From Myxococcales bacterium (lineage in GTDB: Bacteria; Myxococcota; Myxococcia; Myxococcales; Anaeromyxobacteraceae), in the NCBI GenBank assembly GCA_021806645.1, contig JAJZQX010000002.1, positions 1-64,000 of the forward strand: a stretch of 64,000 nt of DNA, written 5' to 3'. The position numbers were made by a program, and so were the translations under genes. Each line of letters opens with the position of its first letter. The first letter of the stretch is position 1. Under the pieces are notes generated by a model, which ran no database searches, was not told the origin of the DNA, and was given only the letters and a program-made list of their open reading frames with translations. This document shows, one piece after another, positions 458 through 19,099 of this stretch.

Positions 458-1444
458 ATGGCAACCGCAGACCAGGTCAAGGCGCTCATCAAGAGCCACG
501 CCGAGGGCGACGAGACCCGGTTTTACGCTATCGCCATGCAGATGGCCGCCCAGGAGGCGCGCACCGGTCACGCACGGCTCGCCCAGGAACTCCGGATGCT
601 CGTTGACGAACTCCGGGCGCGCTCCGTTCGCGAGTATCCGTCCGAGTCGAAGCTTGTTCCGCTCGCCCAGCCGCGAGGCGAACTGGCTGGCCTCCTGACG
701 GTCGGGTACTCGAAGACACGCCTCGGCGAGATGGCCCTCGACTCCGAGGTGCAGCGCCGCATCGAGCGGGTGCTCGTCGAGCAGCGCGAACGCGCTCGCA
801 TCCAGGAGCATGGCTTCACGCCGCTTCGAAAGCTGCTCCTCGTCGGGCCGCCTGGCACCGGGAAGACCATGACGGCGAGCGTGCTGGCGGGCGAGCTCGG
901 CCTCCCACTGTTCACCATCCAGCTCCACGCCCTCATCACGAAGTTCATGGGCGAGACGGCCGCCAAGCTGCGGCTCGTCTTCGACGCGGTGGCGCAGGGT
1001 CGCGCCGTGTACCTCTTCGACGAGTTCGACGCGATCGGCTCCGACCGGGCCTCGAAGAACGACGTCGGCGAGATTCGCCGTGTGCTCAACTCCTTCCTGC
1101 AGTTCCTGGAGCAGGACGCCTCCGACAGTCTCATCCTGGCTGCCACCAATCACCCAGCTCTCCTCGACCGCGCGCTGTTCCGGCGCTTCGACGAGACGAT
1201 CGAGTACCGCCTCCCTGGCGCCGACGCCGCGGAACGGGTGATGAAGGGTCGGCTGGCGCTGCTCGACACGGCGAGCGTGAACTGGGTCGAGGCAGCCCGC
1301 GCCGCCGAGGGACTCAGCCACGGTGACGTGGTCCGGGCTTGCGAGCAGGCTGCCAAGAACGTCCTCCTCGCTCACCGGAGAGGGATCGACACCGCCACGC
1401 TCGTGGAGGCGCTGGCCGATCGCCGCTCGGCGCACGGTCCTTAG
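458..1444 (+). CDS. AAA+ ATPase, partner of an S8 subtilase
   Basis: A 328-residue protein with an N-terminal helical region (about 1-120) and one AAA+ module. Walker A is GPPGTGKT at residues 131-138, Walker B is in YLFDEFDAIG, and a sensor-1-like AATNH is followed by an arginine-rich FRRFD. The order resembles classic AAA (FtsH/Spastin-like) ATPases, but there is no membrane segment and no fused protease. The S8 peptidase gene begins 12 bases downstream. This ATPase-subtilase pairing is known from genomic accessory regions. I infer that ATP hydrolysis unfolds or delivers substrates to, or gates, the protease. An HNH nuclease follows in the same direction, which suggests a three-gene defence-like unit. 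Function here is unproven. Confidence 0.85.
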   Translation: MATADQVKALIKSHAEGDETRFYAIAMQMAAQEARTGHARLAQELRMLVDELRARSVREYPSESKLVPLAQPRGELAGLLTVGYSKTRLGEMALDSEVQRRIERVLVEQRERARIQEHGFTPLRKLLLVGPPGTGKTMTASVLAGELGLPLFTIQLHALITKFMGETAAKLRLVFDAVAQGRAVYLFDEFDAIGSDRASKNDVGEIRRVLNSFLQFLEQDASDSLILAATNHPALLDRALFRRFDETIEYRLPGADAAERVMKGRLALLDTASVNWVEAARAAEGLSHGDVVRACEQAAKNVLLAHRRGIDTATLVEALADRRSAHGP

Positions 1445-1456
1445 CGAGATCCACCG

Positions 1457-4021
1457 ATGCCGGCGCCGCGGAACCGAAGGCACATCGTCGTGCCGGCCGT
1501 GCCGGCGGTGGAACCCTACACGCCGCACTCCCCGGTCTTCGGTCGCGAACAGCTTGTCCCGCCCTCGGGTGGCCGGCCGGCGCATGGAGCGAGGCTCGCG
1601 AAGTCCCTTCGGTTGGCCGCGAAGGACGCGAAGGCACAGCGAGCCGCCGCGGGCTTCGAGGTGCACGGGGCCACGCCTGGCCTCTACGTCCAGTTCGAGG
1701 GCGTTCCAGGGGTTCACCTCAAGGTCGCCAGCCTGGAGGACCGCGGCAAGGGCATCGAAGTCGTCGCGGTGACCTTCGAGCAGACGGAGCAACCAGGGGA
1801 CACGGAACAGCCCGTCGTCACGGAACGCGCCACGGTGTTCGTGCCCGATGGACAGGTGAAGCACTTCATCTCGCGCTTCGAGAAGTACGGGCTCAAGGCA
1901 CCGAGGAAGGCAGGGGAGCGCCGGTACGAGGACATGCTCGACCGGGTCGCCGCGCTTCGACATGCAACACTCCAGGCGCTCTGGACGGACGAACCAGCGG
2001 CCTACCCCGGCGCCGTGAAGGCCATATGGTGGGAGGTCTGGCTTCGCAGGACCGACGGGAAGGAACTCGAACGATTCCTGGAGTTCTCTCAGCACGCAGG
2101 GCTCAGGGTGGGCGAACGTCGACTGGAGTTCGACGACCGCATCGTGGTCCTGGCCTTCGGGTCGGCGCGAAAGCTGTCCTCCTCCCTGGATGTGCTCAAC
2201 GACATCGCTGAGGTCCGGGCGGCGAAGGAGCTCTCGAGCTTTTTCGCCGGCGAGCCCCCGGTCGAACAGGCCAGGTGGGCCGACAGCCTGCTGGAGCGCT
2301 TGAAGGGGCCTGGGTTGGATGCTCCAGCCGTCTGCCTGCTCGATACCGGGGTCGCTCGAGCCCACCCCCTCCTCAAGCCGGCGCTGGACTCGGAGGACCG
2401 CTACGCCGTCGATCCGGCCTGGGGGGTGGAGGACGACGGCGGGGCGCCAGAGGAGCGCGGCCACGGCACTGGAATGGCGGGCGTGGCGCTGTACGGCGAC
2501 CTCGCCGCCGCGCTCGCCGCCAGCGGCCCGGTGGATCTCGTGCATCGACTGGAGTCGGTGAAGATCCTTCCGCCGGCCCGGCTCGGCGTCAATCCACCCG
2601 ACCTCTACGCCGCGGTCACCGCCACGGCAGTCAGCTATCCGGAGTCGCGGCTTCCCAATCGTCGGCGCCTCTTCACCATGGCGGTCTCCTCGGTCGAAGA
2701 CCGCGACCGGGGTCAGCCCACCTCGTGGTCGGCGGCCGTCGATGCCCTCGCGGCGGGCCGGTCCTTTGATGCCACGCGCCAGGGGCTTGCCTACCTGGAG
2801 GGCGCTGACGAGAGGAGGCGCCTGCTCGTGGTCGCAGCCGGCAACGTCACCAGGCCCGATGCAGACCACCTGGCCCGCAGCGATCTCGAGCCGGTCCACG
2901 ACCCCGCCCAGGCCTGGAACGCGCTCACCGTGGGCGCCTTCACGGAGCAGTCTGAGATCGACAATGCGTCCGAGCCGGGCCTCAAGCCGCTCGCGGGTCA
3001 TGGCGAACTGTCGCCCTGGTCGACCACCTCGGTGAGCTTCGCGGCGCCTTGGCCCATCAAGCCGGACGTGGTGGCCGAGGGCGGCAACCTGGGCGTGGAC
3101 TCCAAAGGGAACGTGGACTTTCCGATCCCTTCGCTGAGCCCGCTGACGACGCACTACCGTCCAAACGAGAAGCTCTTCGTCCCCACGTGGGCAACCAGCC
3201 CGGCCTCTGCCCAGGTGGCGCGACTGTGCGCGCTGGTGATGGCCGAGTACCCCAGCCTGTGGCCCGAGGCCGTCCGGGCCATCGTGGTGCACTCGGCCCG
3301 ATGGACGCCGATGATGTGGGCCCACCTCAAGGGAGCGGGGGAGGCGAAGGCGAAGCGGGCCAAGCTGGTTCGCCGCTACGGCTTCGGCGTCCCGAACCTG
3401 GGCAGGGCACTGCGGAGCGCCAACGATGCTCTCACGCTTGTCGTCCAGGGAACACTTCGCCCCTTTGTGGCCGGCAAGATGCGGGAGATGAGCCTCTTCC
3501 ACCTGCCATGGCCCAAGGCAGAACTCGAGGCGCTCGCCGACGCACCGGTCCGTCTCAAGGTCACCCTGTCCTATTTCGTCGAGCCGAATCCGGCTCGGCG
3601 CGGGTGGCAGAAACGCCACCGCTACCAGTCACATGGTTTGCGCTTCGAGATGAAGGGCGTGCTCGAGACAGAGCAGGAGTTCCACAAGCGCCTCAACAAG
3701 CGTGCCTTGGACGAGGAGGAGGAGCGCCCAGCCACTGGCTCCGACGGCGGCTGGTTCCTCGGCACACAGGCGCGCAATACGGGATCACTCCATTCCGATA
3801 CGTGGAGTGGAACCGCGGCTGACCTCGCCGAGCGTGGCGTCGTGGCGGTCTACCCTGTGACCGGTTGGTGGAAGGAACAGCAGAAGAGGGACCGGAGCGA
3901 GCTCGGTGTCCGGTACGCACTGGTGGTGTCCATCGAGACGACCAGCGTCGAGAGCGACATCTGGACGCCGGTGGCCCAGGAGGTCGGGCTGGACATCGAG
4001 ACGGCGGTGGAAGTGGGCTAG
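1457..4021 (+). CDS. S8 family serine peptidase (subtilase), ATPase-associated type
   Basis: An 854-residue protein without a signal peptide, so probably cytoplasmic. The subtilisin triad is recognisable: Asp in LLDTGV (about D296), His in GHGTGMAG (about H336), and Ser in WATSPASAQVARL (about S581), following the usual KPDVV segment. About 280 residues precede the catalytic domain and about 270 follow it; the latter region includes the acidic NKRALDEEEERP segment. It is much longer than secreted subtilisins, and I see no propeptide-like or export signal. It lies in an apparent operon with the AAA+ ATPase before it and an HNH nuclease after it. A short homologous remnant of the acidic segment occurs at 11526-11590, so another copy once existed nearby. 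Confidence 0.85.
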   Translation: MPAPRNRRHIVVPAVPAVEPYTPHSPVFGREQLVPPSGGRPAHGARLAKSLRLAAKDAKAQRAAAGFEVHGATPGLYVQFEGVPGVHLKVASLEDRGKGIEVVAVTFEQTEQPGDTEQPVVTERATVFVPDGQVKHFISRFEKYGLKAPRKAGERRYEDMLDRVAALRHATLQALWTDEPAAYPGAVKAIWWEVWLRRTDGKELERFLEFSQHAGLRVGERRLEFDDRIVVLAFGSARKLSSSLDVLNDIAEVRAAKELSSFFAGEPPVEQARWADSLLERLKGPGLDAPAVCLLDTGVARAHPLLKPALDSEDRYAVDPAWGVEDDGGAPEERGHGTGMAGVALYGDLAAALAASGPVDLVHRLESVKILPPARLGVNPPDLYAAVTATAVSYPESRLPNRRRLFTMAVSSVEDRDRGQPTSWSAAVDALAAGRSFDATRQGLAYLEGADERRRLLVVAAGNVTRPDADHLARSDLEPVHDPAQAWNALTVGAFTEQSEIDNASEPGLKPLAGHGELSPWSTTSVSFAAPWPIKPDVVAEGGNLGVDSKGNVDFPIPSLSPLTTHYRPNEKLFVPTWATSPASAQVARLCALVMAEYPSLWPEAVRAIVVHSARWTPMMWAHLKGAGEAKAKRAKLVRRYGFGVPNLGRALRSANDALTLVVQGTLRPFVAGKMREMSLFHLPWPKAELEALADAPVRLKVTLSYFVEPNPARRGWQKRHRYQSHGLRFEMKGVLETEQEFHKRLNKRALDEEEERPATGSDGGWFLGTQARNTGSLHSDTWSGTAADLAERGVVAVYPVTGWWKEQQKRDRSELGVRYALVVSIETTSVESDIWTPVAQEVGLDIETAVEVG

Positions 4022-4090: not shown

Positions 4091-4864
4091 ATGGACGAGA
4101 AGCTTCATCGGGAGAACCTGGGCCGCACCACCAGCCCGACCGTCCGAAAGCTGTACGGGACCCTGGTGGACGAGCTGGGTTCGGGGTTCATGCGGAGCAG
4201 CCCCCACAGCCATGGCCACATCCGGAACGTGCTCCGCTTCAGCCGAGGCACCCTCAACCCGATCGACTTCATCGTGAACGTCTCGGACTTGCGGTGCTAC
4301 TTCAGGTCGCCGCTCTTCTCGATCCACCCTGACCTCTCGACCTTGGTCGAGACCGAGTTTCCCCAGGGTATCCGGCAGGGGAACGAATGGGTGTTCAACT
4401 TCGACGACGCCCGAACCTGCAAGCGACTCATCGACTTCGTGAACGGGCGGCTGAGAGGGTTCATCGAGATCAGGCCGGGCGGTCCAGCCACGCCCGTAGA
4501 AGAGCGACTGTCCGTGACTTTGGTGGAGCCAGCCTCAGTGGAGGGCTCGGTCTACTGGGAAGGCGACAGGTCCCGCGCTCTTCATGAACAGGTGGAGCGC
4601 AACTCGGCGGCGAGGGACGCGTGTCTCCGCGACCAAGGCGCCCGGTGCATCGTGTGCGGCCTGCGAGTGCGGGAACGATATGCCGGGCTGTCGCGGGAGG
4701 TCGTCGAGGTCCACCACCTGCGGCCCCTGTCTGACACGATTGGCCCGTACCAGCTGAACCCCGCCACGGACCTGGTGCCGGTCTGCCCGAATTGCCACCG
4801 GGTCATCCATTCCCAGGTGCCGGCGCTGGAGCCGGGTCAGGTGAAGGCCATGCTGGCCTCCTGA
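4091..4864 (+). CDS. HNH endonuclease (McrA-like C-terminal nuclease)
   Basis: A 257-residue protein with no recognised N-terminal domain (about 1-180) and a C-terminal HNH module. The module has CIVCG, then VEVHHLRPLS, then a CPNCHRVIH zinc knuckle, as in restriction-type HNH nucleases with ARDACL...CxxC lead-ins. The N-terminal part may recognise DNA or a modified base, but that is inference. The gene starts 69 bases after the subtilase in the same direction and could be the effector of that module or an independent restriction-like gene. Its stop codon (4862-4864) is followed within 1-3 bases by CapD-derived sequence (fragment B), the same kind of junction as at 86. Confidence 0.85.
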   Translation: MDEKLHRENLGRTTSPTVRKLYGTLVDELGSGFMRSSPHSHGHIRNVLRFSRGTLNPIDFIVNVSDLRCYFRSPLFSIHPDLSTLVETEFPQGIRQGNEWVFNFDDARTCKRLIDFVNGRLRGFIEIRPGGPATPVEERLSVTLVEPASVEGSVYWEGDRSRALHEQVERNSAARDACLRDQGARCIVCGLRVRERYAGLSREVVEVHHLRPLSDTIGPYQLNPATDLVPVCPNCHRVIHSQVPALEPGQVKAMLAS

Positions 4865-4865
4865 C

Positions 4866-5242
4866 GACCGCTTCGGCAACGTGCTCGGGTCGGCGGGGAG
4901 ATCTACATCCTGGACATGGGCCAGCCGGTGCGGATCGCCGACCTGGCGCGCGACCTCATCACCCTCTCCGGCTTCACGCCCGGGGTGGACATCGAGATCC
5001 GGTTCACCGGCACGCGCCCCGGCGAGAAGCTCTTCGAGGAGCTCTCGGTGGACGACGAGGCGGCCGAAAAGACCCGCCACCCCAAGATCTTCGTGGGCCG
5101 CTTCCGGCCCTACGAGTGGGACCGGGTGGAGCAGGGGCTGGCGCGGCTGCTCGGGCTCGCGGGGGGGACGGCGGCGGCGGTGCGCGGCGGGCTGCGCGAG
5201 CTGGTGCCGGAGTACCGGCCGGAGGGGGGTTCCGAGGGCTGA
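4866..5242 (+). pseudogene. CapD/WbpM 3'-end remnant, fragment B
   Basis: Starts with [10 protein letters not shown], almost the same entry point as fragment A, then jumps to EIYILDMGQPVRIADLARDL and continues unbroken through FTGTRPGEKLFEEL and [14 protein letters not shown] to [14 protein letters not shown] and TGA at 5240-5242. This is the most complete C-terminal half among the six remnants. The segment between GSAG and EIYIL, present in fragment D, is deleted. It has no start codon and no Rossmann fold. Similarity to CapD/WbpM/FlaA1 C-termini rests on the LDMGxPVRIxDLARDLIxLSG and TGxRPGEKLFEEL motifs. Confidence 0.85.
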
Positions 5243-5337
5243 GGGGCCCGAACGCCACGGACGCGACCGAACTGAACCCGGACTTGAGCGTAGCGCGATG
5301 GACGCGAGGCCGGGCGCTCTGAGCTACCCAAGGGCCT

Positions 5338-5392: not shown

Positions 5393-6550
5393 TTGAAGCG
5401 CACGAGGATCGCACAGACACCGGCCGAGGCTGGCTATGAGACCGTGCTCGCTGACGTCGCGGAGTTGGTCGAGGCGGTGAGGGGCGCATCAGCGCGGACG
5501 GTGAACGCGCTGATGACGGCCACGTACTGGTCGATCGGGCGTCGGATCGTCTAGCAGGAGCAGCAGGGGCTGACGCGCGCTGACTACGGCGCGGTGCTGA
5601 TCGGTCGCCTGGCCATGCACTTGACGGCTCGCTTTGGCCGCGGGTTCGGCCGCCGGAACATCTTCCAGATGCGGTCCTTCTACCTCGCCTACCGCGAACT
5701 TCCGCTTGCAGGGCACTCGCAATTCATGAGGCCTTCGACGGCCGCGAAAGTGCAGACAGCGTCTGCACTTTCTACTGTGATGACCCTCGCCGGTGGACCG
5801 GACCGCCTGCCGGTCTTCCCGCTGCCTTGGTCCCACTACGTGCGCCTCCTTGGCGTTCGCAGCGTCGAGGGCAGGCGGTTCTACGAAGCCGAGGCGCTTC
5901 GTGGAGGCTGGACCATTCGGCAGCTCGACCGCCAGATTGGCAGCCAGTTCTACGAGCGCACGGCGCTGTCCAAGAACAAGGCCGTGATGCTGCGACGCGG
6001 GGAGGCGAGGCGACCAGGCGACGCGGTAACGCCCGAAGAGGAGATCAAGGATCCCTTCGTGCTCGAGTTCCTCGGGCTCAAGGATGAGTACTCCGAGACC
6101 GAGTTCGAGGCGGCCCTGACCTCCAAGATCGAGTCATTCTTGCTGGAACTCGGCGGCGACTTCGCCTTCGTGGGCCGGCAGCGCCGACTGCGCGTCGGGG
6201 ATACCTGGTATCGGATCGACCTGCTCTTCTTTCACCGTCTCTTGCGCTGCCTCGTCATCATCGATCTGAAATTGGACCGACTCACCCACGCAGACGCTGG
6301 TCAGATGCATCTCTACCTGAACTACGCTCGCGAGCACTGGATGCTCCAAGGGGAGAATCCGCCGGTCGGCCTCATCCTATGCGCCGAGAAGGACAGCGCG
6401 GTCGCTCACTACGCGCTGGAGGAGCTGTTCAACAAGGTGCTCGCCGCCGAGTACCGGACTGCGCTCCCCACCGAGCGCACGCTTGTCGCGGAAATCGAGC
6501 GGACCATCCACCAGATCTCGGGCCGGTCACGGTCACGCACCCGGAGATGA
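5393..6550 (+). pseudogene. DUF1016 / PDDEXK nuclease (YhcG-like) with in-frame amber
   Basis: From TTG 5393 the frame encodes the DUF1016 N-terminal helical domain (NALMTATYWSIGRRIV). It hits TAG at 5552-5554, where relatives usually carry Glu, and continues in the same frame through [20 protein letters not shown] and the PDDEXK nuclease core (YRIDLLFFH ... CLVIIDLKL ... QMHLYLNY) to TGA at 6550. Without the amber it would be about 385 residues, normal for the family. Internal starts such as GTG 5594 could still give a 318-residue protein lacking the first domain. The last nine codons are read out of CapD fragment C in another frame, so the native C-terminus is probably lost. DUF1016 proteins occur in defence and restriction contexts. 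Most likely a decayed nuclease, with readthrough an outside possibility. Confidence 0.75.
5478..5882 (+). repeat. 405-bp direct repeat, copy 1 (5' part of the DUF1016 gene)
   Basis: Identical by eye to 8288-8692, at an offset of exactly 2810 bases. It begins at TGAGGGGCGCATC and ends at GGCGGTTCT. This copy is embedded in the longer DUF1016 gene; the second copy lies between the abiEii stop codon and CapD fragment D. Both copies carry the same in-frame TAG, so the stop predates the duplication or has been kept by gene conversion. Confidence 0.95.
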
Positions 6551-6746
6551 AGCGGTACTTCATGACCATCCCGGAGGCCAGCCAGTTGGTGCTGCAGGCC
6601 GGGACCATGGGTCCTCCGAGTGGGACCGGGTGGAGAAGCGGCTGGCGCGGCTGCTCGGGCTCGCCGGGGGGACGGCGGCGGCGGTGCGCGGCGGGCTGCG
6701 CGAGCTGGTGCCGGAGTACCGGCCGGACGGGGATTCGGAGGGCTGA
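6520..6746 (+). pseudogene. CapD/WbpM 3'-end remnant, fragment C
   Basis: Starts with [20 protein letters not shown], a highly conserved CapD/WbpM stretch, runs to [11 protein letters not shown], then jumps to [18 protein letters not shown] and on to [14 protein letters not shown], with TGA at 6744-6746. The LDMG...RPGEKLFEEL block is deleted. Its 5' end overlaps the last codons of the upstream nuclease frame, so the join happened inside that gene. Fragments C and D leave the CapD sequence at nearly the same point (after QAGT) but rejoin it with different bases. Confidence 0.85.
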
Positions 6747-6783
6747 GGGTCCGCCGAGGCCCCCGGCGAAACCCGGGCGACGG

Positions 6784-6817: not shown

Positions 6818-7753
6818 TTCACATCCGATCACGCCATGGCTGCCGGCAGTTGTCACCTCCGCAGCTTGTCCGAGGTCTTCGACGCTGACCCCCGGCGGCG
6901 CATGCATACGGGTACGCTTGCTGAAAGCAACGGTAGGCGTTACTTTGACAGCGTGAAACCGGTCCAAGGGGCTAGAACCGCCGCGCGCTACGCCGACAGC
7001 CTCGCGGCGTCGGGGCGCTACCACTTCACGACCACCGATGCCGTGAAGGCGCTCGGCGTCTCCACCGTGGCAGCCCGCGCCGCGCTTCGTCGGCTCGCCG
7101 CCAAGGGGGCCATCGCCTCGCCCAATCGTGGTTTTCACGTGATCGTGCCTCCAGAGTACCGGCGGCTCGGCTGCCTGCCCCCGGAGCAGTTCATCCCTCA
7201 GCTCATGGCGCACCTTGGACTCGACTACTACGCCGGCCTGCTCTCTGCCGCGCAGCTCCACGGGGCAGCCCACCAGCGACCCCAGGTGTTCCAGGTGATG
7301 GTGGAGCGGAACAGGGCACCGATCGCCTGCGGCGAAGTCCGGGTCGAGTTCGCCGCGCGCAAGGCCATCGCGGGTGTTCCGACGGTTCAGTTGAATACCC
7401 CCCGCGGGAAGCTTCGTGTCTCGAGCCTCGAGGCAACCGCGCTCGAACTCGTGGGCTACTCGGCGCGCGCCGGAGGTCTCGATACGGTGGCCACCGTGCT
7501 GGCCGAGCTCACGGAGCAGGTGGACCCGATGAAGCTCGCCGCGGCGGCTCGCCTGGCCCCGGTGCCGTGGGCACAACGACTTGGCCACTTGTTCGAACTG
7601 GCGGGAGCCGGCGACAAGACCGGTCCGCTCGCCGAGTGGGTACACGCCGAGGCTCGCGAGTACGTCGCCCTGGTCCCAGGGGGAGGCCGAGGGAAGGAGC
7701 GATCGAAGCGGTGGCGGCTCCTCGTCAACGCCTCGGTGGAGATCGATGCGTGA
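6815..7753 (+). CDS. AbiEi-family antitoxin (type IV toxin-antitoxin)
   Basis: 312 residues if started at the leaderless ATG 6815; the conserved part begins near GTG 6953 ([17 protein letters not shown]). It shows the winged-helix segment [28 protein letters not shown] and the long AbiEi effector domain ([19 protein letters not shown]-like [13 protein letters not shown]). AbiEi proteins repress their own operon and counter the nucleotidyltransferase toxin AbiEii in phage abortive infection. The toxin gene starts with a GTGA overlap at 7750, so the operon layout is standard. The toxin, however, is internally deleted, which leaves this as a probable orphan antitoxin. The start is uncertain; ATG 6815 adds about 46 unconserved residues. 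Confidence 0.8.
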
Positions 7754-8290
7754 TCCCCCGCGACTTCATCACGGAGTGGCGTGCGCAGGCACCCTGGGTG
7801 TCGGACCTCCAGGTGGAGCAGGACCTCGTGATCAGCCGCGCGCTCGTGGAACTCTTCTCCCGGCTCGCCATCGCGGAGGCGCTCGCCTTTCGCGGCGGGA
7901 CGGCTCTCTACAAGCTGCACCTGCGTCCGCCCGCTCGATACTCCGAGGACATCGATCTCGTGCAAGTCGATGCGGGACCCATCGGCTCGGTGCTGAAGGA
8001 AGTGCGCGCGGCGCTCGACCCATGGCTCGGGGACCGCCCCGGTCGACCCGAGGCGCGTGGTGGAGGCGTTCTCCCGCTACATGACGGAGGAAGCGGGCCG
8101 GGTGACCCGGGCCGCGTTCGAGCGCAACCTCGCGCAGAAGCGGCGCGACCCGGTATTCACGGGGGACATCTCGCCGCTCCTTGCGCCCGGCCATCCGTGG
8201 GACCTCGAGGCAGCGTTCGAGTCAGTTCACGGTCGGCTCGTTGCTCTCCTCCCGGGCGAGCCGTGGAAGGGCTGGTCGCCGGAGAGATGA
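7750..8290 (+). pseudogene. abiEii toxin with internal deletion and frameshift
   Basis: The N-terminal part ([16 protein letters not shown]..., FRGGTALYKLHL, YSEDIDLV) carries the nucleotidyltransferase motif GGTAL and the DID metal site. At about 8040 the sequence jumps, out of frame, to the C-terminal part (RRVVEAFSRYMTEEAG, SPLLAPGHPWD, PGEPWKGW) and ends at TGA 8288-8290. Around 100 middle residues expected from the family are absent. The toxin should be inactive, although a fragment with the active-site motif could still be made. The stop codon is also the first base of the second 405-bp repeat copy. Confidence 0.8.
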
Positions 8291-8692
8291 GGGGCGCATC
8301 AGCGCGGACGGTGAACGCGCTGATGACGGCCACGTACTGGTCGATCGGGCGTCGGATCGTCTAGCAGGAGCAGCAGGGGCTGACGCGCGCTGACTACGGC
8401 GCGGTGCTGATCGGTCGCCTGGCCATGCACTTGACGGCTCGCTTTGGCCGCGGGTTCGGCCGCCGGAACATCTTCCAGATGCGGTCCTTCTACCTCGCCT
8501 ACCGCGAACTTCCGCTTGCAGGGCACTCGCAATTCATGAGGCCTTCGACGGCCGCGAAAGTGCAGACAGCGTCTGCACTTTCTACTGTGATGACCCTCGC
8601 CGGTGGACCGGACCGCCTGCCGGTCTTCCCGCTGCCTTGGTCCCACTACGTGCGCCTCCTTGGCGTTCGCAGCGTCGAGGGCAGGCGGTTCT
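8288..8692 (+). repeat. 405-bp direct repeat, copy 2
   Basis: Exact copy of 5478-5882 by eye. Here it is a fragment of the DUF1016 gene (including the in-frame TAG at 8362-8364) with neither its true 5' end nor its nuclease core. It joins the abiEii stop codon on the left and CapD fragment D on the right; the right join shares the short GGTTCT overlap with copy 1. Confidence 0.95.
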
Positions 8693-9092
8693 CCACCGAC
8701 AAGGCGGTCAACCCCACCTCGGTGATGGGCGCCACCAAGCGGGTGGCCGAGATCTACGTGCAGTCGCTGTCGCAGCGGTCCAGGACCCGCTTCGTCACCG
8801 TCCGCTTCGGCAACGTGCTCGGCTCGGCCGGGAGCGTCATTCCCATCTTCAAGGAGCAGATCGCCGCCGGCGGGCCGGTCACGGTCACCCACCCGGAGAT
8901 GAAGCGGTACTTCATGACCATCCCGGAGGCGAGCCAGCTGGTGCTGCAGGCCGGCACCATCGTCCCTACGAGTGGGACCGAGTGGAGAAGGGGCTGGTGC
9001 GGCTGCGAGGGCTCGCGGGGGAGACGGGGGACATGGTGCGCGGCGGGCTGAGGGAGCTGGTGCCGGAGTACCGGCCGGACGCGGGGTCCTGA
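8691..9092 (+). pseudogene. CapD/WbpM 3'-end remnant, fragment D
   Basis: The longest N-terminal stretch of the remnants: [49 protein letters not shown], then [20 protein letters not shown] and VLQAGTI. STDKA and [12 protein letters not shown] are the diagnostic active-site-side motif of CapD/WbpM/FlaA1 dehydratases. It then joins [11 protein letters not shown] in another frame and ends [12 protein letters not shown] with TGA 9090-9092. The tail is more diverged than in A-C ([13 protein letters not shown]). It has no start codon. The 40 bases after its stop match those after fragment A. Confidence 0.85.
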
Positions 9093-9212
9093 GGGTGAGT
9101 TCACGCTGACGTGACCGCGCGGGACTCGGGCCCACGGTCACCCAGTTCTGGCCTGGGCGAAGCGCTCCCCAGGACTATCCCCGAGGCCGGGACACTCCGG
9201 ACCCATCCGAGT

Positions 9213-9611
9213 TCACCGCCGCGCGCCTGCGAGCTGCTGGATCCGCTGGTGGGAGACCCCGAGCAGCTCGGCGGCATCGCGAACCGACATCCCGAGCTTG
9301 CGGGTGAGCACGCTGGCGGCGGAGGCCGTGGCCTTCATGGCCTTGGCCTGGACCTGGTCGAGCTGGGCGCGAGACGAGGCGACCTTGCGGACCACGGCGC
9401 TGGTCCGGGCTGGGAGGCGGATATCGTCCACCAGCTCGGCGCGGGCAGCGGCCGCTTCATCGATGAAGAGCGCAAGCGCCTCGCGAATTCGCCTCCGACC
9501 CTCGGCCAGGCTGCGGCCCTGGGTCAGGCACCCCTGAACCTCGGGCACGGTGACGATCCACCAACCCGACGGGTCCTTCTCGAAGCGGACAGTGTAGCTC
9601 CTGGTCTTCAT
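9213..9611 (-). CDS. HicB-type antitoxin with C-terminal helix-turn-helix
   Basis: 132 residues. The N-terminal HicB fold reads YTVRFEKDPSGWWIVTVPEVQGCLTQGRSLAEGRRRIREALAL in sequence; a C-terminal Arc/XRE-like HTH is present in VRDAAELLGVSHQRIQQLAG. The start at 9611 is well supported by AGGAGG eight bases upstream. HicB proteins neutralise HicA mRNA interferases and repress their promoter. No HicA gene is present: only an 18-codon open stretch without a start (…KDWLKKIIREGK) lies immediately upstream, possibly a remnant of the toxin. This is therefore an orphan or a HicB-like regulator. Confidence 0.75.
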   Translation of the reverse strand: MKTRSYTVRFEKDPSGWWIVTVPEVQGCLTQGRSLAEGRRRIREALALFIDEAAAARAELVDDIRLPARTSAVVRKVASSRAQLDQVQAKAMKATASAASVLTRKLGMSVRDAAELLGVSHQRIQQLAGARR

Positions 9612-9681
9612 GTTGTGCCTCCTACTTCCCTTCCCGGATGATCTTCTTGAGCCAGTCCTTGCCCAGGCAGGGTTCACCGAA

Positions 9682-9724
9682 AGGCTATTCCGGCCCGGCC
9701 AATCTGTCAAGGCGGTTAGACAGA
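9682..9724 (-). promoter_or_regulatory. Sigma-70-like promoter and inverted repeat before hicB
   Basis: On the minus strand TTGACA (9705-9710) is followed after 17 bases by TAGCCT (9682-9687). The -35 box is covered by the left arm of an inverted repeat, TCTGTC (9703-9708) and GACAGA (9719-9724), separated by 10 bases. The repeat lies between the divergent hicB and ImmA/IrrE genes and could be an operator for either HTH protein. Confidence 0.5.
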
Positions 9725-9764
9725 TCGAAGGAGGCGGATCGCCGAGGCGCGCAAGGTTGCTCAG

Positions 9765-10601
9765 TTGAGCCAGGCCGAGCTGGCGACCGCCGTGAAGCTG
9801 CTTGTCGAAATGGGCCTCCTGGTGCCGCCCCTGGCACCGCAGCCGACCACCGTCGACTCGGTGGAGACCGCTGAATTGGCGGCCCGCAACCTGCGACTTC
9901 ATCTGGGGCTCTCGCCCGGGCCCGTCTGGGACCTCCTCACCGTAGCCGAGCGGCTCGGCTGCTACGCCTTCAGCCTTGATCTCAGGGACGACTCGCTGGA
10001 CGGGGCCTACTTGCGCCTGGAGGCCGGCGGAGTCGCCGTGGTCAACGGCTCCATGCGACCCGGCCGCCGGCGGTTCACGTTGGCCCATGAGCTTGGCCAC
10101 CATCTTTTCGCGGATGACTTCTCGGATGAGTGGATCGTGGGGGCTGATGGGGACGGGCGCGAGCGACTCATCAACGCGTTCGTGATCCACTTCCTGATGC
10201 CTCGGGAGGCCTGTCTCTCCAGGTGGCAAGAACTCGAAGGCCGGCGTGAGCCGCGCTCCGCGGCGCTCGCGCTCGGGGCAGAGTTCGGCGTGAGCTGGAC
10301 CGCGGTGCTGGGCCACCTGCGCAACCTCGACCTCGTGGACATCCGCGCCCACGAGCGACTGAGCGCGGACCGCCCCACCAAGGCCGACTATCTGGAGGGT
10401 GGGGTGACCATGCGGGAAGAGTTGACGCCCCCGGCCGTGCCGCCCAAGTACGCCCAGGCGGTCATCCGGGCGTTCAAGGGCCACAAGCTCAGCCGCGGCC
10501 GGACGCTCGACCTGCTCCACGGCGCCGCAACGGCCCAGGATCTTCCACGGGAAGACCGGGTCCCGGTTGAATCGATGCGAGCACAGTTCGATCTCGACTG
10601 A
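9765..10601 (+). CDS. ImmA/IrrE-family metallo-endopeptidase
   Basis: 278 residues from TTG 9765. The zinc-peptidase motif is FTLAHELGHHLF (HExxH), followed by the family pattern NAFVIHFLMPREA and a C-terminal helical domain. Members cleave repressors and control mobile elements or toxin-antitoxin genes. Relatives usually start with an XRE HTH domain. Here only RIAEARKVAQLSQAELATAV remains, then the sequence switches to KLLVEMGLLVPP, so the HTH core seems deleted. The start is unclear: an AAGGAGG box at 9728-9734 precedes no ATG, GTG or TTG until 9765, and only an in-frame ATC occurs at 9738. An in-frame TAG at 9717 closes the frame upstream. Confidence 0.8.
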   Translation: MSQAELATAVKLLVEMGLLVPPLAPQPTTVDSVETAELAARNLRLHLGLSPGPVWDLLTVAERLGCYAFSLDLRDDSLDGAYLRLEAGGVAVVNGSMRPGRRRFTLAHELGHHLFADDFSDEWIVGADGDGRERLINAFVIHFLMPREACLSRWQELEGRREPRSAALALGAEFGVSWTAVLGHLRNLDLVDIRAHERLSADRPTKADYLEGGVTMREELTPPAVPPKYAQAVIRAFKGHKLSRGRTLDLLHGAATAQDLPREDRVPVESMRAQFDLD

Positions 10602-10603
10602 CG

Positions 10604-10666
10604 ATGGCGGTGCTCGTCTTCGACAGTGCGCCGCTGAGCGCTGTGCTCCGGAGAAGCTCGAAGTAG
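10604..10666 (+). pseudogene. PIN-like protein N-terminal stub downstream of the ImmA/IrrE gene
   Basis: ATG 10604, two bases after the peptidase stop, opens MAVLVFDSAPLSAVLRRSSK and then TAG. The opening LVFDxxPLS is typical of PIN-like nuclease domains, which often follow ImmA/IrrE-XRE genes. Only 20 residues survive, so the putative effector of this pair is lost. The sequence then runs without any gene to the antitoxin stop at 10684. Confidence 0.5.
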
Positions 10667-10683
10667 CAGCGACCAGGTGGCGG

Positions 10684-10998
10684 CTAGACGCCGCGCAGCT
10701 TGACCGACCGGCCGTCAAACCGGGCGACGATCTCCAGTTCGCCGCCCAGTGCTTCGATGTAGCGGCGCAGCGTCGAGAGCAAGTGGTCATCCCTGCGCTC
10801 GACGCGGGACAACTCGGACTGGTCGATGTCCGTCGCCCTTGCAACGTCCTCCTGGGTCAGGCCGGTGAGCTGGCGCAGCTCGCGGAGGTTCATCTCGAGA
10901 ATCTCCGCCTCGACGGCCTTGTCGATCTCGGCGATTTCCCCCGAGGTGAAATACTTGGCATCCAGTTCCTTCAACGTCTTCGTCCGAACCCTCGTCAT
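10684..10998 (-). CDS. XRE-family antitoxin (HigA-like)
   Basis: 104 residues from ATG 10998 (TTG 11004 is also possible). The central HTH reads LRQLTGLTQEDVARATDIDQSELSRVERR in sequence, followed by LLSTLRRYIEALGGELE, the usual HigA/XRE tail. The gene lies 67 bases behind the Gp49/HigB-like toxin, the toxin-first order normal for higBA. The protein is about half identical by eye to the antitoxin at 25324-25629, sharing STLRRY.ALGGELE and the K/R-GV end. It probably neutralises the toxin and represses the operon at the inverted repeat 11453-11474. Confidence 0.85.
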   Translation of the reverse strand: MTRVRTKTLKELDAKYFTSGEIAEIDKAVEAEILEMNLRELRQLTGLTQEDVARATDIDQSELSRVERRDDHLLSTLRRYIEALGGELEIVARFDGRSVKLRGV

Positions 10999-11065
10999 GT
11001 GCAATTGCCCGTCGCGCGTCGGCTACGGCGAGCCCTCCGTCCCGGTGGTGCTCGGGCGGTTGGAG

Positions 11066-11422
11066 TCACTTCGAGTCATCCTCTTCGATGTCCCTCAAGT
11101 GCTGCTCCCAGATGGCCTCGGCCACCGGGATGATGCGATCGTACATCGCCTTGTCGGCTCCCTTGTCGCCGCCGGTGAGCAGGACGGCCTCTCGTCGCGG
11201 GTCGAAGGCGTAGATGGGCCGCAAGGGGCTGTTGCCCTGTTTCGGACGAAGCTCCCGAAGCGCGTAGCGGGAGCCCTTGATGGCGCAGCTATGCGGATAT
11301 GCCAACAGCAGGCCCAACTCCTTGAGAAGGTGGATCGAGTGACGCACCTCCTTTTGCTCGCGGTGGGTCAGGCTGGACATCCACCCGTCGAACTCCTCTG
11401 TCACGATGACTGTAGCGGCCAT
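11066..11422 (-). CDS. HigB / phage Gp49-like toxin (RelE superfamily, DUF891)
   Basis: 118 residues from ATG 11422. Conserved DUF891 features are WMSSLTHREQKEVRHSIHLLKELG, IKGSRYALRELRP, PLRPIYAFDPRREAVLLTGGDK and the tail YDRIIPVAEAIWEQHL. Such toxins are ribosome-dependent mRNA interferases. A TTGACA promoter with an overlapping palindrome lies just upstream (11453-11481). The pair with the downstream XRE antitoxin looks intact, in contrast to most neighbouring modules. Confidence 0.85.
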   Translation of the reverse strand: MAATVIVTEEFDGWMSSLTHREQKEVRHSIHLLKELGLLLAYPHSCAIKGSRYALRELRPKQGNSPLRPIYAFDPRREAVLLTGGDKGADKAMYDRIIPVAEAIWEQHLRDIEEDDSK

Positions 11423-11452
11423 GAACGTTTCCGCTTCGGCCCACCGCGTACC

Positions 11453-11481
11453 CTTATGACATGTACCACATAAGTTGTCAA
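11453..11481 (-). promoter_or_regulatory. Promoter and operator of the first HigBA-like pair
   Basis: On the minus strand TTGACA (11476-11481), a 17-base spacer and CATAAG (11453-11458). The arms CTTATG (11453-11458) and CATAAG (11469-11474) form an inverted repeat around the palindrome ACATGT, so a bound dimer would cover the -10 and spacer. This is typical placement for toxin-antitoxin autoregulation. Confidence 0.55.
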
Positions 11482-11525
11482 GCATGTGGACGGTGTCGCC
11501 CCACCCGCCTCGAGTGCCACGGGAT

Positions 11526-11590
11526 TGCCACAAGGCTCAACAAGCGCGCACTGGAGGAGGAGGAGCAACGCCCAACCGCTGGCGAAGGCT
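11526..11590 (+). pseudogene. Remnant of a second S8 subtilase gene
   Basis: Reads TRLNKRALEEEEQRPTAGEGSG, matching HKRLNKRALDEEEERPATGSDG of the subtilase at 1457-4021, with DNA similarity over about 65 bases and several substitutions. It is therefore a diverged homologue, not a recent copy. Both flanks are unrelated to the subtilase. Confidence 0.65.
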
Positions 11591-11996
11591 CCGGCGCCTC
11601 CTCCAGCTCAAGACCGTGGACAGCGGCGGAAACGTGTTCGTCACCGTGCCGGACGACGACCTCGTCTTTGGGCGTCGGCTCGAACCAGTCCCTGGCATCT
11701 GGTGCACCGGGCTCGTCCAGACCTGGCTGGCTCTGTCCCGCGCCGGCGACCGAGGGGTCGAGGCCGCCGACCATCTCCTGCAGCAGCGGTGGAAGCCGGA
11801 GTGGGAGCAGCGTCCGTGACCGCGCCGGCCGTCGCCTACGACATCTACTACTCGGTCCGGAACTTCGAGGGCGGACCGGAGGCGCTGGCGGTGGCATGCC
11901 GCCCACTGCTCGGCGACCCGGTGGTCGAATGGGGGTTGAGATGCATTGCGGGGAAGTTCGGCTCGCGCGAGGACTTCGGGCCGGAGACGGTGCGCC
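11591..11996 (+). pseudogene. Remnant of a second AbiE-like operon (abiEi' and abiEii')
   Basis: The first frame (11591-11819) reads NVFVTVPDDDLVFGRRLEP and VQTWLALSRAGDRGVEAADHLLQQRW, resembling the C-terminal part of AbiEi-like antitoxins. A GTGA overlap at 11816 leads into a second frame that begins MTAPAVAYDIYYSVRNFEGG and ends ARPLL-like CRPLLGDPVVEWGLRCIAGKFGS, resembling the C-terminus of AbiEii-like nucleotidyltransferases. Both genes lack their main domains. The second frame runs directly into CapD fragment E, so this is another cargo end touching a CapD remnant. Family assignment rests on short motifs and the operon layout. Confidence 0.5.
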
Positions 11997-12027
11997 GGTT
12001 CCGGCCCTACGAGTGGGACCGGGTGGA
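11996..12027 (+). pseudogene. CapD/WbpM 3'-end remnant, fragment E
   Basis: 32 bases encoding [10 protein letters not shown], identical to the corresponding piece of fragments A and B. Nothing else of the gene follows; the sequence leaves the homology at the point where fragments continue with EKRLARLLG. Fragment F (17527-17589) holds the more distal part, so E and F may be the two ends of one remnant split by the IS/SNF2 segment. Confidence 0.7.
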
Positions 12028-12188
12028 CGGCCCGCTTCGGCCACGGGGCAGGGATGATTGGCGGCGGTAGCCGCCCGGACTGAAGGGCTCTTGGAAGTCC
12101 AGACGTTTGGACTGGCGCCGGACCCTGCGCAGCCGCGAGCACAAGCACAAATTCGCACGCCCATCTCCACTCGGGGTACGAAACAGAT

Positions 12189-12219
12189 GCGGCGGGCGAT
12201 CCTGGTGATCGCCCGCCGC
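12189..12219. other. Perfect 13-bp stem-loop left of the IS
   Basis: GCGGCGGGCGATC (12189-12201) pairs with GATCGCCCGCCGC (12207-12219) around the loop CTGGT. No T-run follows on either strand, so it is not a standard intrinsic terminator. It lies 15 bases outside the left inverted repeat of the IS. It could reduce transcription into the IS or be part of an older element. The rest of 12028-12234 shows no gene. Confidence 0.5.
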
Positions 12220-12234
12220 GGTTCGGCTTGTCGT

Positions 12235-13191
12235 CGGGTAGGAGCCCGGCGGATGCCAACGACCCGGGGATCATACGAGAGGAGATCGATGAGGGGAAGA
12301 GCGGTGAGGAGGATGGCGGGGCTCCTGGCGGCGCGGCTGCCGGAGCTGGGGCTGGAGGAGGTGCCCGGCCCGAGGGCGCGGGAGGGGCGCTGGAGCCTGG
12401 CGCAGATCCTCCAGGCGACGCTGCTGGGCCTCATGGCCGGGTGCCGGAGCCTCTCGGAGTCCGAGGACCTGAGCGCGTCGCTGGCGCTGACGATGCGGCG
12501 GGGCGCTCTCGGAGGCCAACGCCAAAGCCGTGGTGGACGCGGGCAAGGACTACCTCTTCGCGCTCAAGGGCGAGCAGCGGACCATGTTCAAGCTGGCCAC
12601 CGAACATATCGCCTTCGAGAAGGTCCTCGCCAGGACCGAGGACGTCCTCGACAACGAGACCACCGTGGTGCGCTCGCTCAAGCTGCTGGCGGTCGATCCG
12701 ACCTGGAGCTACGGCGACGGCAAGGGGCCGGGCGAGTCGGTCTGGCCGCACGCCAGGGCGTTCCTCTCCGTCGAGTACGTGAAGGTCCACCGCCGCGAAG
12801 TGGTCGAGCAGGACGAGCGGCTATTCGTCACGAGCTACGACCCGGCGCGGCTCACGGACGAGCAGTGGCTGTTGCTGGCGCGCAGCCACTGGGGCGTGGA
12901 GAACAACAATCACCACACTCTCGACACCGCCTTCGCCGAGGACGACCGGCCGTGGATCGAGGCCGACCCGCAGGGCATGCTCGCCGTGCTCATCCTGCGC
13001 CGCATAGCCTACACGCTGCTGGCGCTCTACCGCTCGGTGACGCTCCGCTCGGACGAGGGGCGCGCCACCCGCTGGAAATCACTGCTCCAGTCGGTGCGCG
13101 ACCTGCTCGTCGCCGCCACCGAAGACCAGCTTGCTGGCCTCCGCCAGCGGCAGGCCGCCGCGACACGCTGAAATCGCCGGGCTCCTACCCG
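12235..13191 (+). mobile_element. ISAs1-family insertion sequence, internally deleted
   Basis: Bounded by 17-bp perfect terminal inverted repeats, CGGGTAGGAGCCCGGCG at 12235-12251 and its complement at 13175-13191. The total length is 957 bases, shorter than full ISAs1-type elements (about 1.2-1.3 kb), which agrees with an internal deletion in the transposase. No obvious target duplication flanks it, so one end may have rearranged after insertion. It should not move on its own but could respond to a related transposase. Confidence 0.75.
12289..13171 (+). pseudogene. ISAs1-family transposase, deletion and frameshift
   Basis: The N-terminal part from ATG 12289 (MRGRAVRRMAGLLAARLPEL, WSLAQILQATLLGLMAGCRS) is the DDE_Tnp_1-associated region. 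Near 12510 it joins the C-terminal catalytic part in another frame: NAKAVVDAGKDYLFALKGEQ, then RSHWGVENNNHHTLDTAFAEDDRPW, then AVLILRRIAYTLLALYRS. RxHWxVEN and the D..F.ED pattern are diagnostic for ISAs1/H-repeat transposases. The middle segment with the first catalytic Asp (IDGK-type motif) is missing, so the enzyme is inactive. Confidence 0.8.
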
Positions 13192-13402
13192 CGGCGGGCG
13201 ACATCGAAGGGACCTGGGAAACACTGCCCCGCGACCGGCGCCGGCCGGCCGTAGCCGCCGCGTGCCCCGAGGTCCGGCAGGAACCGCTCCCCGGCCACCC
13301 CGGAGGCGGGCCTAACCTCGGGAACTGCTTGGCCGATCATTCCTGGAGCCGACCAGACCCGGTGGTGCCGCTGTCAGCCTCGGCGGCTAGGTTGCTCCCC
13401 CG

Positions 13403-17497
<4,095 letters not shown>

Positions 17498-17526: not shown

Positions 17527-17589
17527 GGTGCGCGGCGGGCCGCGGGAGCTGGTGCCGGAGTACCGGCCGGGTGGCGGTTCCGAGGGCCA
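17527..17589 (+). pseudogene. CapD/WbpM 3'-end remnant, fragment F
   Basis: Encodes [20 protein letters not shown], the last 20 residues of the CapD-type protein, with the terminal TGA changed (GAGGGCCAG instead of GAGGGCTGA). It starts 29 bases after the SNF2 stop codon and is followed by the 3' end of a dehydrogenase gene on the other strand. It marks the right border of the accessory island. Confidence 0.75.
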
Positions 17590-17638: not shown

Positions 17639-18961
17639 CTAGGCCTTGACCAGCCTGCAGGGTGGCGAGCGGCCCGCGAAGAGCGGCGCAACGAGGTTAC
17701 GGGTGTCCACGGCCAGCTTCACTCCGCCCCAGAGTCCCGGGTGCTTGAATGCATCGTGGGCGGTGGAGACCACCACGGCGTCGTGGGCACCGAAGGCCTC
17801 GGCGGTGCATGGCACCGACTTCAGGCCGAGATCGTACTTCCTGGTCCGGTGCGTCGCCGGGAAGAAGGGATCGCAGTAGTCCACCCGTGCGCCGAGTTCC
17901 TTCAGCAGCTCCAGGATCTCGTACGACGGCGACTCCCGGTCGTCGTCCACGTTGGCCTTGTAGGCCAGCCCCAGCACCAGCACCCGCGACCCCTTGAGCG
18001 ACTTCCCGTCCTCGTTGAGGGCGTGCATCACCTTGTCCACCACGTAGCGAGGCATGCGCGTGTTGATCTCGCCGGCCAGCTCGATGAAGCGGGCCCACTC
18101 GCCGTGCTCGGCCGCCTTCCACGACAGGTAGAACGGGTCGAGCGGGATGCAGTGCCCCCCCAGCCCCGGCCCCGGGTAGAAGGGCATGAAGCCGAACGGC
18201 TTGGTGGCGGCCGCCGCGATCACCTCCCAGATGTCGATGCCCATCCGGTCGAGGATCACCTTCAGCTCGTTGACCAGCGCGATGTTCACGGACCGGAAGA
18301 CGTTCTCCAGCAGCTTGGACGACTCGGCGACACGCGATGACGAGACCGCCACGACCTGGTCGAGCCCGGCGGTGTAGAGGGCCACCGCAGCCTCGGTGGA
18401 GGGCGCATTGACCCCGCCAACCACCTTCGGGATCGAACGAGTGGTGAAGTCCTTGCGGCCCGGGTCCTCGCGCTCCGGGTAGAAGGCCAGCAGGAAGTCC
18501 TCCGGGCAGCGCAGGCCGCTCTTCTGGAGGAGCGGCAGCACCTAGCCGTCGGTGGTGCCCGGGTAGGTGGTGGACTCCAGGATGACCAGCTGCCCGGGCC
18601 GGAGTCGCCTGGCGATCTCCTCGGCGGTCCGGTGGATGTAGGAGTTGTCCGGTTCGCGGTGCGGTCCGAGCGGCGTGGGCACGCAGATGACGACGGCGTC
18701 GCAGTCGCGCAGCCGGTCGAAGTCGGTGGTGGCCTGGAACCGGCCGCTCGCCACGGCCTGCTTCACCCGCTCCGGCCCGATGTGCTTGATTTACGACTCG
18801 CCGCGGCCGATCGCCGCCACCTTCACCGGGTCGAGGTCGAACCCGGTCACCGGGAAGCCGCCCTCGCAGAGGACCAGCGCCAGCGGCAGGCCGACGTACC
18901 CCTGCCCGATGACGCCGACTCGCGCCGTGCGGTCGTTGATCCTGGTCAGCAAGGCGCTCAT
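17639..18961 (-). pseudogene. UDP-glucose/GDP-mannose dehydrogenase-family enzyme with two in-frame stops
   Basis: From ATG 18961 one frame gives the NAD-binding start VGVIGQGYVGLPLALVLCEGG, TAA at 18791-18793, the segment CDAVVICVPTPLGPHREPD, TAG at 18542-18544, then the catalytic and C-terminal domains (FRSVNIALVNELK, PGPGLGGHCIPLDPFYL, GLAYKANVDDDRESPS). The active-site Cys in GGHCIPLD is present. Length and domain order match UDP-N-acetyl-hexosamine/UDP-glucose 6-dehydrogenases such as WecC/TviB, which oxidise nucleotide sugars for capsules. Everything except the two stops is conserved and in frame, so inactivation is recent, or the stops are sequence errors or read through. It lies at the head of the export genes. 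Confidence 0.85.
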
Positions 18962-18997
18962 CGTGCCCCCAAGTGTGTTGCCCGGAGAAACCAGTCT

Positions 18998-19099
18998 AGT
19001 GCCCGATCCGTCTCCAAAGAAGACCAGCGCCTTCAAGCTCTCGCTCGGCTGGAAGCTCGGGCCGAACATCTCGCGGGCCGCGCCGAGACCACTGGCCAT
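18998..19099 (-). other. Possible short gene remnant in the divergent intergenic region
   Basis: The minus strand reads MASGLGAAREMFGPSFQPSE followed by SLKALVFFGDG and continues in frame, without a stop, into the dehydrogenase start region. The pattern FxPxxSLKALVFFGDG looks like a conserved protein segment rather than random translation and might come from a nucleotidyltransferase-type toxin, but I cannot confirm the family. The remaining 18962-19259 shows no other gene and must contain the promoter of the phosphatase-wza-wzc operon; I could not fix its position. Confidence 0.25.

Follow-up and report, generated by a model that had tools for sequence, protein, structure and literature searches.

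In the present study, we interpret the region as a hotspot of defence genes in decay, situated at an exopolysaccharide locus. Within the window, meaning the whole 64,000-nt stretch of DNA that was analysed, we regard the patch at 11521-12027, with good confidence, as non-functional wreckage in a hotspot of defence and toxin-antitoxin cassettes, lying where a capD gene has been lost, next to the exopolysaccharide genes wza and wzc, and preserving the remains of an AbiEi_2/AbiEii operon formerly present there. From left to right, the patch holds a subtilase scrap (IetS'), an antitoxin piece (AbiEi'), a GTGA overlap, a toxin piece (AbiEii') and capD fragment E. The original prediction, which had placed scraps of these three types at 11526-12027 and taken them as a record of turnover, was confirmed in place by homology and by a chance test of 500 dinucleotide shuffles per scrap, with the AbiE pieces recognised as protein and the IetS and capD pieces as DNA. 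As far as the sequences can tell, cassette turnover at the locus is supported; the turnover reading is supported for AbiE and is strengthened by a congener (G002).

The scraps themselves gave nothing usable against Pfam, where the sole match (E 0.28) was a chance one in another frame, and no match against the PADLOC profiles. Since they went unrecognised in direct HMM searches, their identity could be reached only via intact relatives.

The cassettes of the hotspot

Base 1 of the window is the first base of contig C5 (329,956 bases), one of the 33 contigs of a 4.14-Mb genome, and the G+C content of the window is 73%. Several unrelated defence or toxin-antitoxin systems share this single site. 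Lying between pieces of capD are a UDG-like gene (below the Pfam cut-off), a DUF6941 module, the IetA (458-1444) and IetS (1457-4021) defence pair (458-4021, + strand; PADLOC IetA 3e-69 and IetS 1.4e-36, with an S8 domain), an HNH gene, a DUF1016/YhcG nuclease cassette (PADLOC PDC-S02; 5594-6550, +, found by both Pfam and PADLOC), and an AbiE pair (6970-8290, left end approximate, +), which consists of an AbiEi of the AbiEi_1 family (PF09407, 2.3e-50) and a truncated AbiEii whose PF08843 match covers profile positions 1-63 of 238 only. Further along stand a HicB-like gene (-; its match just below the Pfam cut-off), an M78/ImmA-like gene (+) and an XRE plus Gp49/HigB-like pair (-), together at 9216-11533, and a SNF2-family helicase gene (13403-17497, +; PF00176, 5e-58).

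Additionally, the 5' part of the DUF1016 gene (5478-5882) recurs without a mismatch over 405 nt at 8288-8692 (+), and this second copy abuts capD fragment D directly. The same in-frame TAG is present in both. An insertion sequence with an internal deletion (12049-13345) begins 22 nt past capD fragment E and has copies at G000:C8:320356-322056 and on C13; relative to the former copy, about 400 nt are deleted.

The AbiE relic

The AbiE pieces lie at 11586-12001. AbiEi' (11586-11819, +) comprises the final 77 codons of an AbiEi_2-type antitoxin gene, ending in the stop TGA at 11817-11819 and lacking roughly the first 287 antitoxin residues, and is identical at 36 of 68 amino acids (53%) to residues 288-355 of the 360-residue AbiEi of Variovorax plasmid 3. 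The GTGA stop/start overlap at 11816-11819 (+), with its GTG start at 11816, can be read directly from the sequence and leads into AbiEii' (11816-12001, +), a toxin gene without about 190 internal codons. Compared with the 292-residue Variovorax toxin, AbiEii' keeps the start and 5 codons (11816-11833), has lost approximately residues 6-199 and is in frame again from residue 200, retaining residues ~200-255 (11834-12001), in which 35 of 56 amino acids (63%) are identical to the toxin of the Variovorax plasmid operon L142. Against the Variovorax operon, AbiEi' scored 65.1 bits (shuffle maximum 27.7) and AbiEii' 70.5 bits (maximum 25.8), scores reached by none of the 500 shuffles in either case. 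The second AbiE-like operon with a visible overlap, as originally predicted, was thereby borne out.

The intact relatives tell the same story of gene order and family. All three plasmid records that were fetched hold both genes in the order of the relic, antitoxin gene first; the first gene is annotated as an AbiEi family antitoxin, the second as an AbiEii/AbiGii toxin in one record and as hypothetical in two, and the genes overlap by 4 nt in L143 and by 13 nt in L142 and L144. AbiEi' itself has no Pfam match, whereas three intact antitoxin relatives match AbiEi_2 (PF09952) at 7e-9, 4e-7 and 5e-5. Among four intact toxin relatives, the match to AbiEii (PF08843) is clear in one (4.1e-8), just below the cut-off in another (2.7e-4) and weak in two (0.15 and 0.034). 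By tblastn, the toxin piece was found in 27 of 72,556 plasmid records (E<=0.01) and the antitoxin piece in 26 of 72,556 (E<=0.1); the toxin piece had no match at E<=0.01 among 50,697 phage records and was present in 6 of 195 genomes of the phylum, own genome included (E<=0.001). Matches of AbiEii' in other genomes at E<=0.001 (2 in one search, 5 in the phylum search) begin at relic residue 7, as do 19 of the 20 plasmid matches listed.

Homology to these intact plasmid operons shows that an AbiEi_2/AbiEii operon was once present at the patch; its antitoxin gene has since lost the 5' portion and its toxin gene about 190 mid-gene codons, both truncations being visible in the relic. Nucleotidyltransferase motifs I and II of the toxin, which PMC3985639 places near the N-terminus of AbiEii, fall in the missing part. 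Given these truncations, a working toxin would not be expected from the relic. The neighbouring AbiE pair, 3.3 kb off, belongs to AbiEi_1, an antitoxin family other than the AbiEi_2 of the relic; therefore, the relic represents a separate lost cassette, and the two are not recent duplicates of each other. The claim that the locus had hosted more cassettes of the same types than now remain stands for at least one extra AbiE cassette, of a different antitoxin family, with the congener adding evidence of turnover, and is not supported as stated for subtilase and capD. A search for the full source cassettes yielded relatives at 53-63% identity and no donors.

The subtilase scrap

The claimed remnant of a second subtilase also held, in the form of IetS' (11521-11584, +), which is what is left of the 3' part of a gene for an IetS-type protease of the S8 family and carries a 2-nt frameshift. 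It is identical to window positions 3676-3739, inside the IetS gene, at 51 of 64 positions (80%) with a 2-nt gap, and its DNA score of 60 exceeds the maximum of 39 among 500 shuffles, none of which reached it. As a protein the match is marginal, being equalled by 1 of 500 shuffles. The scrap corresponds to residues 745-765 of the 854-residue IetS and lies outside the S8 domain (residues 290-644). A lack of homology to S8 or AbiE families, which would have overturned the original prediction, was not what the comparisons showed.

It is nearly an even chance that the IetS and capD scraps arose by duplication of the copies close by and then decayed where they stood, and that AbiE alone was ever a separate cassette. 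In a DNA comparison of 81 IetS genes (that of the window and those of 80 distinct loci), the window IetS was nearest to IetS', with a score of 64 against a next best of 44, which makes an old duplicate of the neighbour possible. Moreover, capD fragment E is almost identical to other local fragments, and the exact 405-nt duplicate shows that local duplication happens here. On the other hand, IetS' is just 80% identical to its neighbour, and among 17 codons aligned in frame, 4 of the 8 changed ones are synonymous, somewhat above expectation for plain neutral decay; furthermore, its protein scores are near-equal for the window IetS (75) and the next two IetS proteins (72 and 71). Judged on these comparisons, IetS' may be an old duplicate of the neighbouring IetS or derive from a separate related IetS, both origins being possible. 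The earlier view that none of the scraps derives from its neighbours fares differently for each: it holds for AbiE, may or may not hold for the subtilase, and fails for capD fragment E, as all the capD fragments represent one gene.

The capD fragments and the exopolysaccharide locus

In its own genome, capD (Polysacc_synt_2, PF02719) survives as eight pieces of its last third only, and the search of that genome turned up nothing from upstream of residue 435, as numbered in a 654-residue orthologue; a hit on contig C4 of the same genome, at 28% identity, was taken for a different protein. Six pieces lie in C5, all on the + strand: fragment A (86-282; 5' truncated, with an internal deletion), fragment B (4863-5243), fragment C (6519-6747; internal deletion), fragment D (8692-9099; the longest 5' reach, and an internal deletion), fragment E (11990-12027; 38 nt) and fragment F (17527-17587; 3' end only). 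The two others, C28_1 (C28:65563-66010) and a second piece (C28:67613-67746), are both + in contig C28. Since C28 breaks off within a capD piece and 85 nt of C5 precede its first piece, the two contigs are probably neighbours; the locus sits at the ends of two contigs, and both their join and the common orientation of the two fragment sets are what we infer.

Fragment E, likewise part of the original prediction, proved to be real: it is identical at 36 of 38 nt to fragment B and at 37 of 38 to a C28 fragment, and its DNA score of 66, against a maximum of 33, was reached by none of 500 shuffles. Its comparison with a distant capD protein was not significant (110 of 500 shuffles reached the score), so that its support is the DNA match to the other local fragments. 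With protein evidence weak for IetS' and fragment E, both are established by DNA similarity to local relatives and not by protein search.

A protein search with the C-terminal part of capD in 41 genomes gave 7 matches (E<=1e-8) in the own genome and at most 3 in any other. With the 3' end as DNA, at least 48 of 60 genomes (own included) matched at E<=0.001, and the best match outside the own genome, among those listed, was short and at 1e-8; we took these matches as no evidence of other arrays.

Over the shared 3' end, fragments A, B, C and C28_1 are mutually 94-97% identical, and D is 86-87% identical to these. The 59 differences between fragments, summed over ten comparisons, fall on codon positions 1, 2 and 3 as 16/21/22, whereas the same segment compared with an intact orthologue gives 8/9/34; as the ten comparisons share references, the counts are not independent and are suggestive only. 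The lack of a third-position excess favours an origin of the pieces from a single capD 3' end that was copied, the copies drifting afterwards. It may well be that the 3' end of capD was copied several times, probably within the lineage, and that the copies drifted without selection, as the codon-position counts suggest. Different functional capD alleles as the source of the fragments were considered and rejected for want of a third-position excess.

It is rather unlikely that the pieces were cassette-borne, each cassette having brought a piece of its donor's capD so that the differences between fragments would reflect different donors. Such an origin would fit the divergence, which reaches 14% where the fragments share their 3' part, and also the left ends, which differ from fragment to fragment and adjoin cassette genes; it sits poorly with the codon positions, which show none of the third-position excess seen in divergence from the intact orthologue, and with the surroundings of IetS loci elsewhere. 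In the fetched flanks (up to 6 kb) of 80 IetS loci in other genomes, 8 of these loci being shorter than 8 kb, capD was found in 0 of 80 at E<=1e-8, a result that speaks for capD as part of the site rather than of the cassettes.

The relatives agree with capD as a former resident of the site. Six of their loci were fetched and four compared, and three of the four (L053, L055 and L056) have an intact capD close to wza, with wzc close by as well in two of the three; in this window, wza and wzc follow the capD array. The glycosyltransferase gene adjoining the array in C28 had no match at E<=1e-15 in the loci of four relatives, so the synteny rests on wza, wzc, an ABC transporter, an anti-sigma gene and Ugd, not all of them in each locus. 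A second Ugd-like gene in the window (17639-19060, -) has two in-frame stops, and an open copy of Ugd is located in C28 (L009:11963-13280).

Junctions and possible routes of cassette gain and loss

At the junction of AbiEii' and capD fragment E, 12 nt (11990-12001) fit both genes, agreeing at 11 of 12 positions with the C28 capD and at 10 of 12 with fragment B; they encode the end of AbiEii', VRRF, where capD has VGRF. At a second short-homology junction, the TGA closing the AbiEii frame coincides with the first bases of the 405-nt DUF1016 duplicate. The overlap at the toxin-capD junction is what short-homology joining would be expected to leave. Apart from this, the UDG-like gene (L009:15568-15601) and the DUF1016 gene (window 6519-6550), which are unrelated, are fused to capD at almost identical positions; each reading frame continues into capD for a few codons and terminates at one and the same capD stop, which is out of frame with capD itself.

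Cassettes would most likely have been gained by recombination in which capD supplied homology at one end while the other end was joined illegitimately, and may have been lost by short-homology deletion; neither donor DNA nor an empty site was found. Homology-facilitated illegitimate recombination has been proposed for Vibrio T6SS immunity-gene arrays in PMC5361080, and a process of this one-sided kind is also described in PMC2884548. Going further, the capD fragments might be site-borne homologous direct repeats that drive an integrase-free, recombination-driven cassette array, in which each module with same-strand capD pieces on its flanks can be excised, duplicated or replaced by homologous recombination and decays between the repeats, the scraps being modules shut out of exchange; we put this forward tentatively and consider it doubtful. 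If capD repeats do drive exchange, the locus would offer a tractable case of defence islands that gain and lose cassettes without an integrase.

A layer shared with a congener

Contig C4 of G002 (4.6 kb, = L159) carries pieces of the DUF6941 module of C28 (89%, 89% and 76% identical), 68 nt of AbiEi' (93%) and a match to window 19008-19098 (85%), all in the same order and orientation as here. The last of these is part of an apparently full-length AbiEii-type gene (L159:1875-2549; PF08843 1.1e-17, profile positions 14-178 of 238), which in the window and at the end of C28 has dwindled to a 38-residue scrap, a relic of a further AbiEii-type toxin gene (18986-19099, -; 28 of 38 amino acids identical to the G002 product). 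The small gene upstream of it in G002 matches no Pfam family. From the module pieces to the AbiEi relic the distance is about 0.6 kb in G002, against more than 11 kb of cassettes here. G002 keeps the collinear pieces with a different intact gene, and the AbiE relic appears as a layer shared between two species, with the collinearity supported by this one short congener contig, in which the identity of the site is probable. No capD fragment was detectable on the contig. Next to the AbiEi relic of G002, on the opposite strand, a piece resembling the M78/ImmA C-terminus was read by eye.

In the 68-nt stretch of AbiEi', 4 of the 5 codon differences between the own genome and G002 are synonymous, a hint that the AbiEi gene was still under selection while the copies diverged; a single old relic inherited by both would not lead one to expect this. 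That G002 retains a full AbiE2 cassette was considered and rejected, the contig having these 68 nt only. It is highly improbable that the relic region is still functional, for example as a regulatory RNA or a truncated antitoxin, since, for all that the AbiEi' stretch is more conserved in G002 than the glycosyltransferase gene (81%) and SNF2 (75-77%) and changes mostly at synonymous sites, the antitoxin lacks most of its length and searches of G002 gave no match to the toxin piece.

Comparison with known systems

We return to the reading of the patch as wreckage in a decaying hotspot. Homology, beyond presence or absence, shows here that a defence hotspot formerly held more systems than it encodes today. 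The component genes are of known kinds; the arrangement is unusual, and its special status is unproven. Defence islands and hotspots with pseudogenised systems are a known kind of locus, and the present one resembles them in mixing defence and toxin-antitoxin genes, several of them broken, at one chromosomal site, while differing in being punctuated by repeated 3' fragments of a former resident gene, capD.

As for the individual systems, the subtilase scrap matches the C-terminal region of the IetS of IetAS (an ATPase plus a subtilase; PADLOC IetA/IetS), but amounts to just 64 nt, frameshifted and without the catalytic domain, and the region 11400-12100 has no match to the IetA gene at E<=1. 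The relic operon shares with AbiE type IV toxin-antitoxin systems its gene order, its overlapping genes and its C-terminal homology to annotated plasmid AbiEi/AbiEii; it differs from them in the truncation of both genes, which has cost the toxin the region bearing its catalytic motifs, and function is not expected.

The locus as a whole can also be compared with the Vibrio T6SS immunity-gene arrays and the strings of orphan 3' regions in Rhs loci, which, according to PMC5361080, arise by serial insertion with leftovers of earlier modules. In the T6SS arrays, the old effector is displaced by incoming effector-immunity modules and the immunity genes remain, whereas here the repeated piece is capD, unrelated to the cassettes. 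Such arrays stand next to a secreted effector gene; none was noticed among the proteins scanned here. This repeated capD punctuation is the unusual feature of the locus, and it is worth population-level attention.
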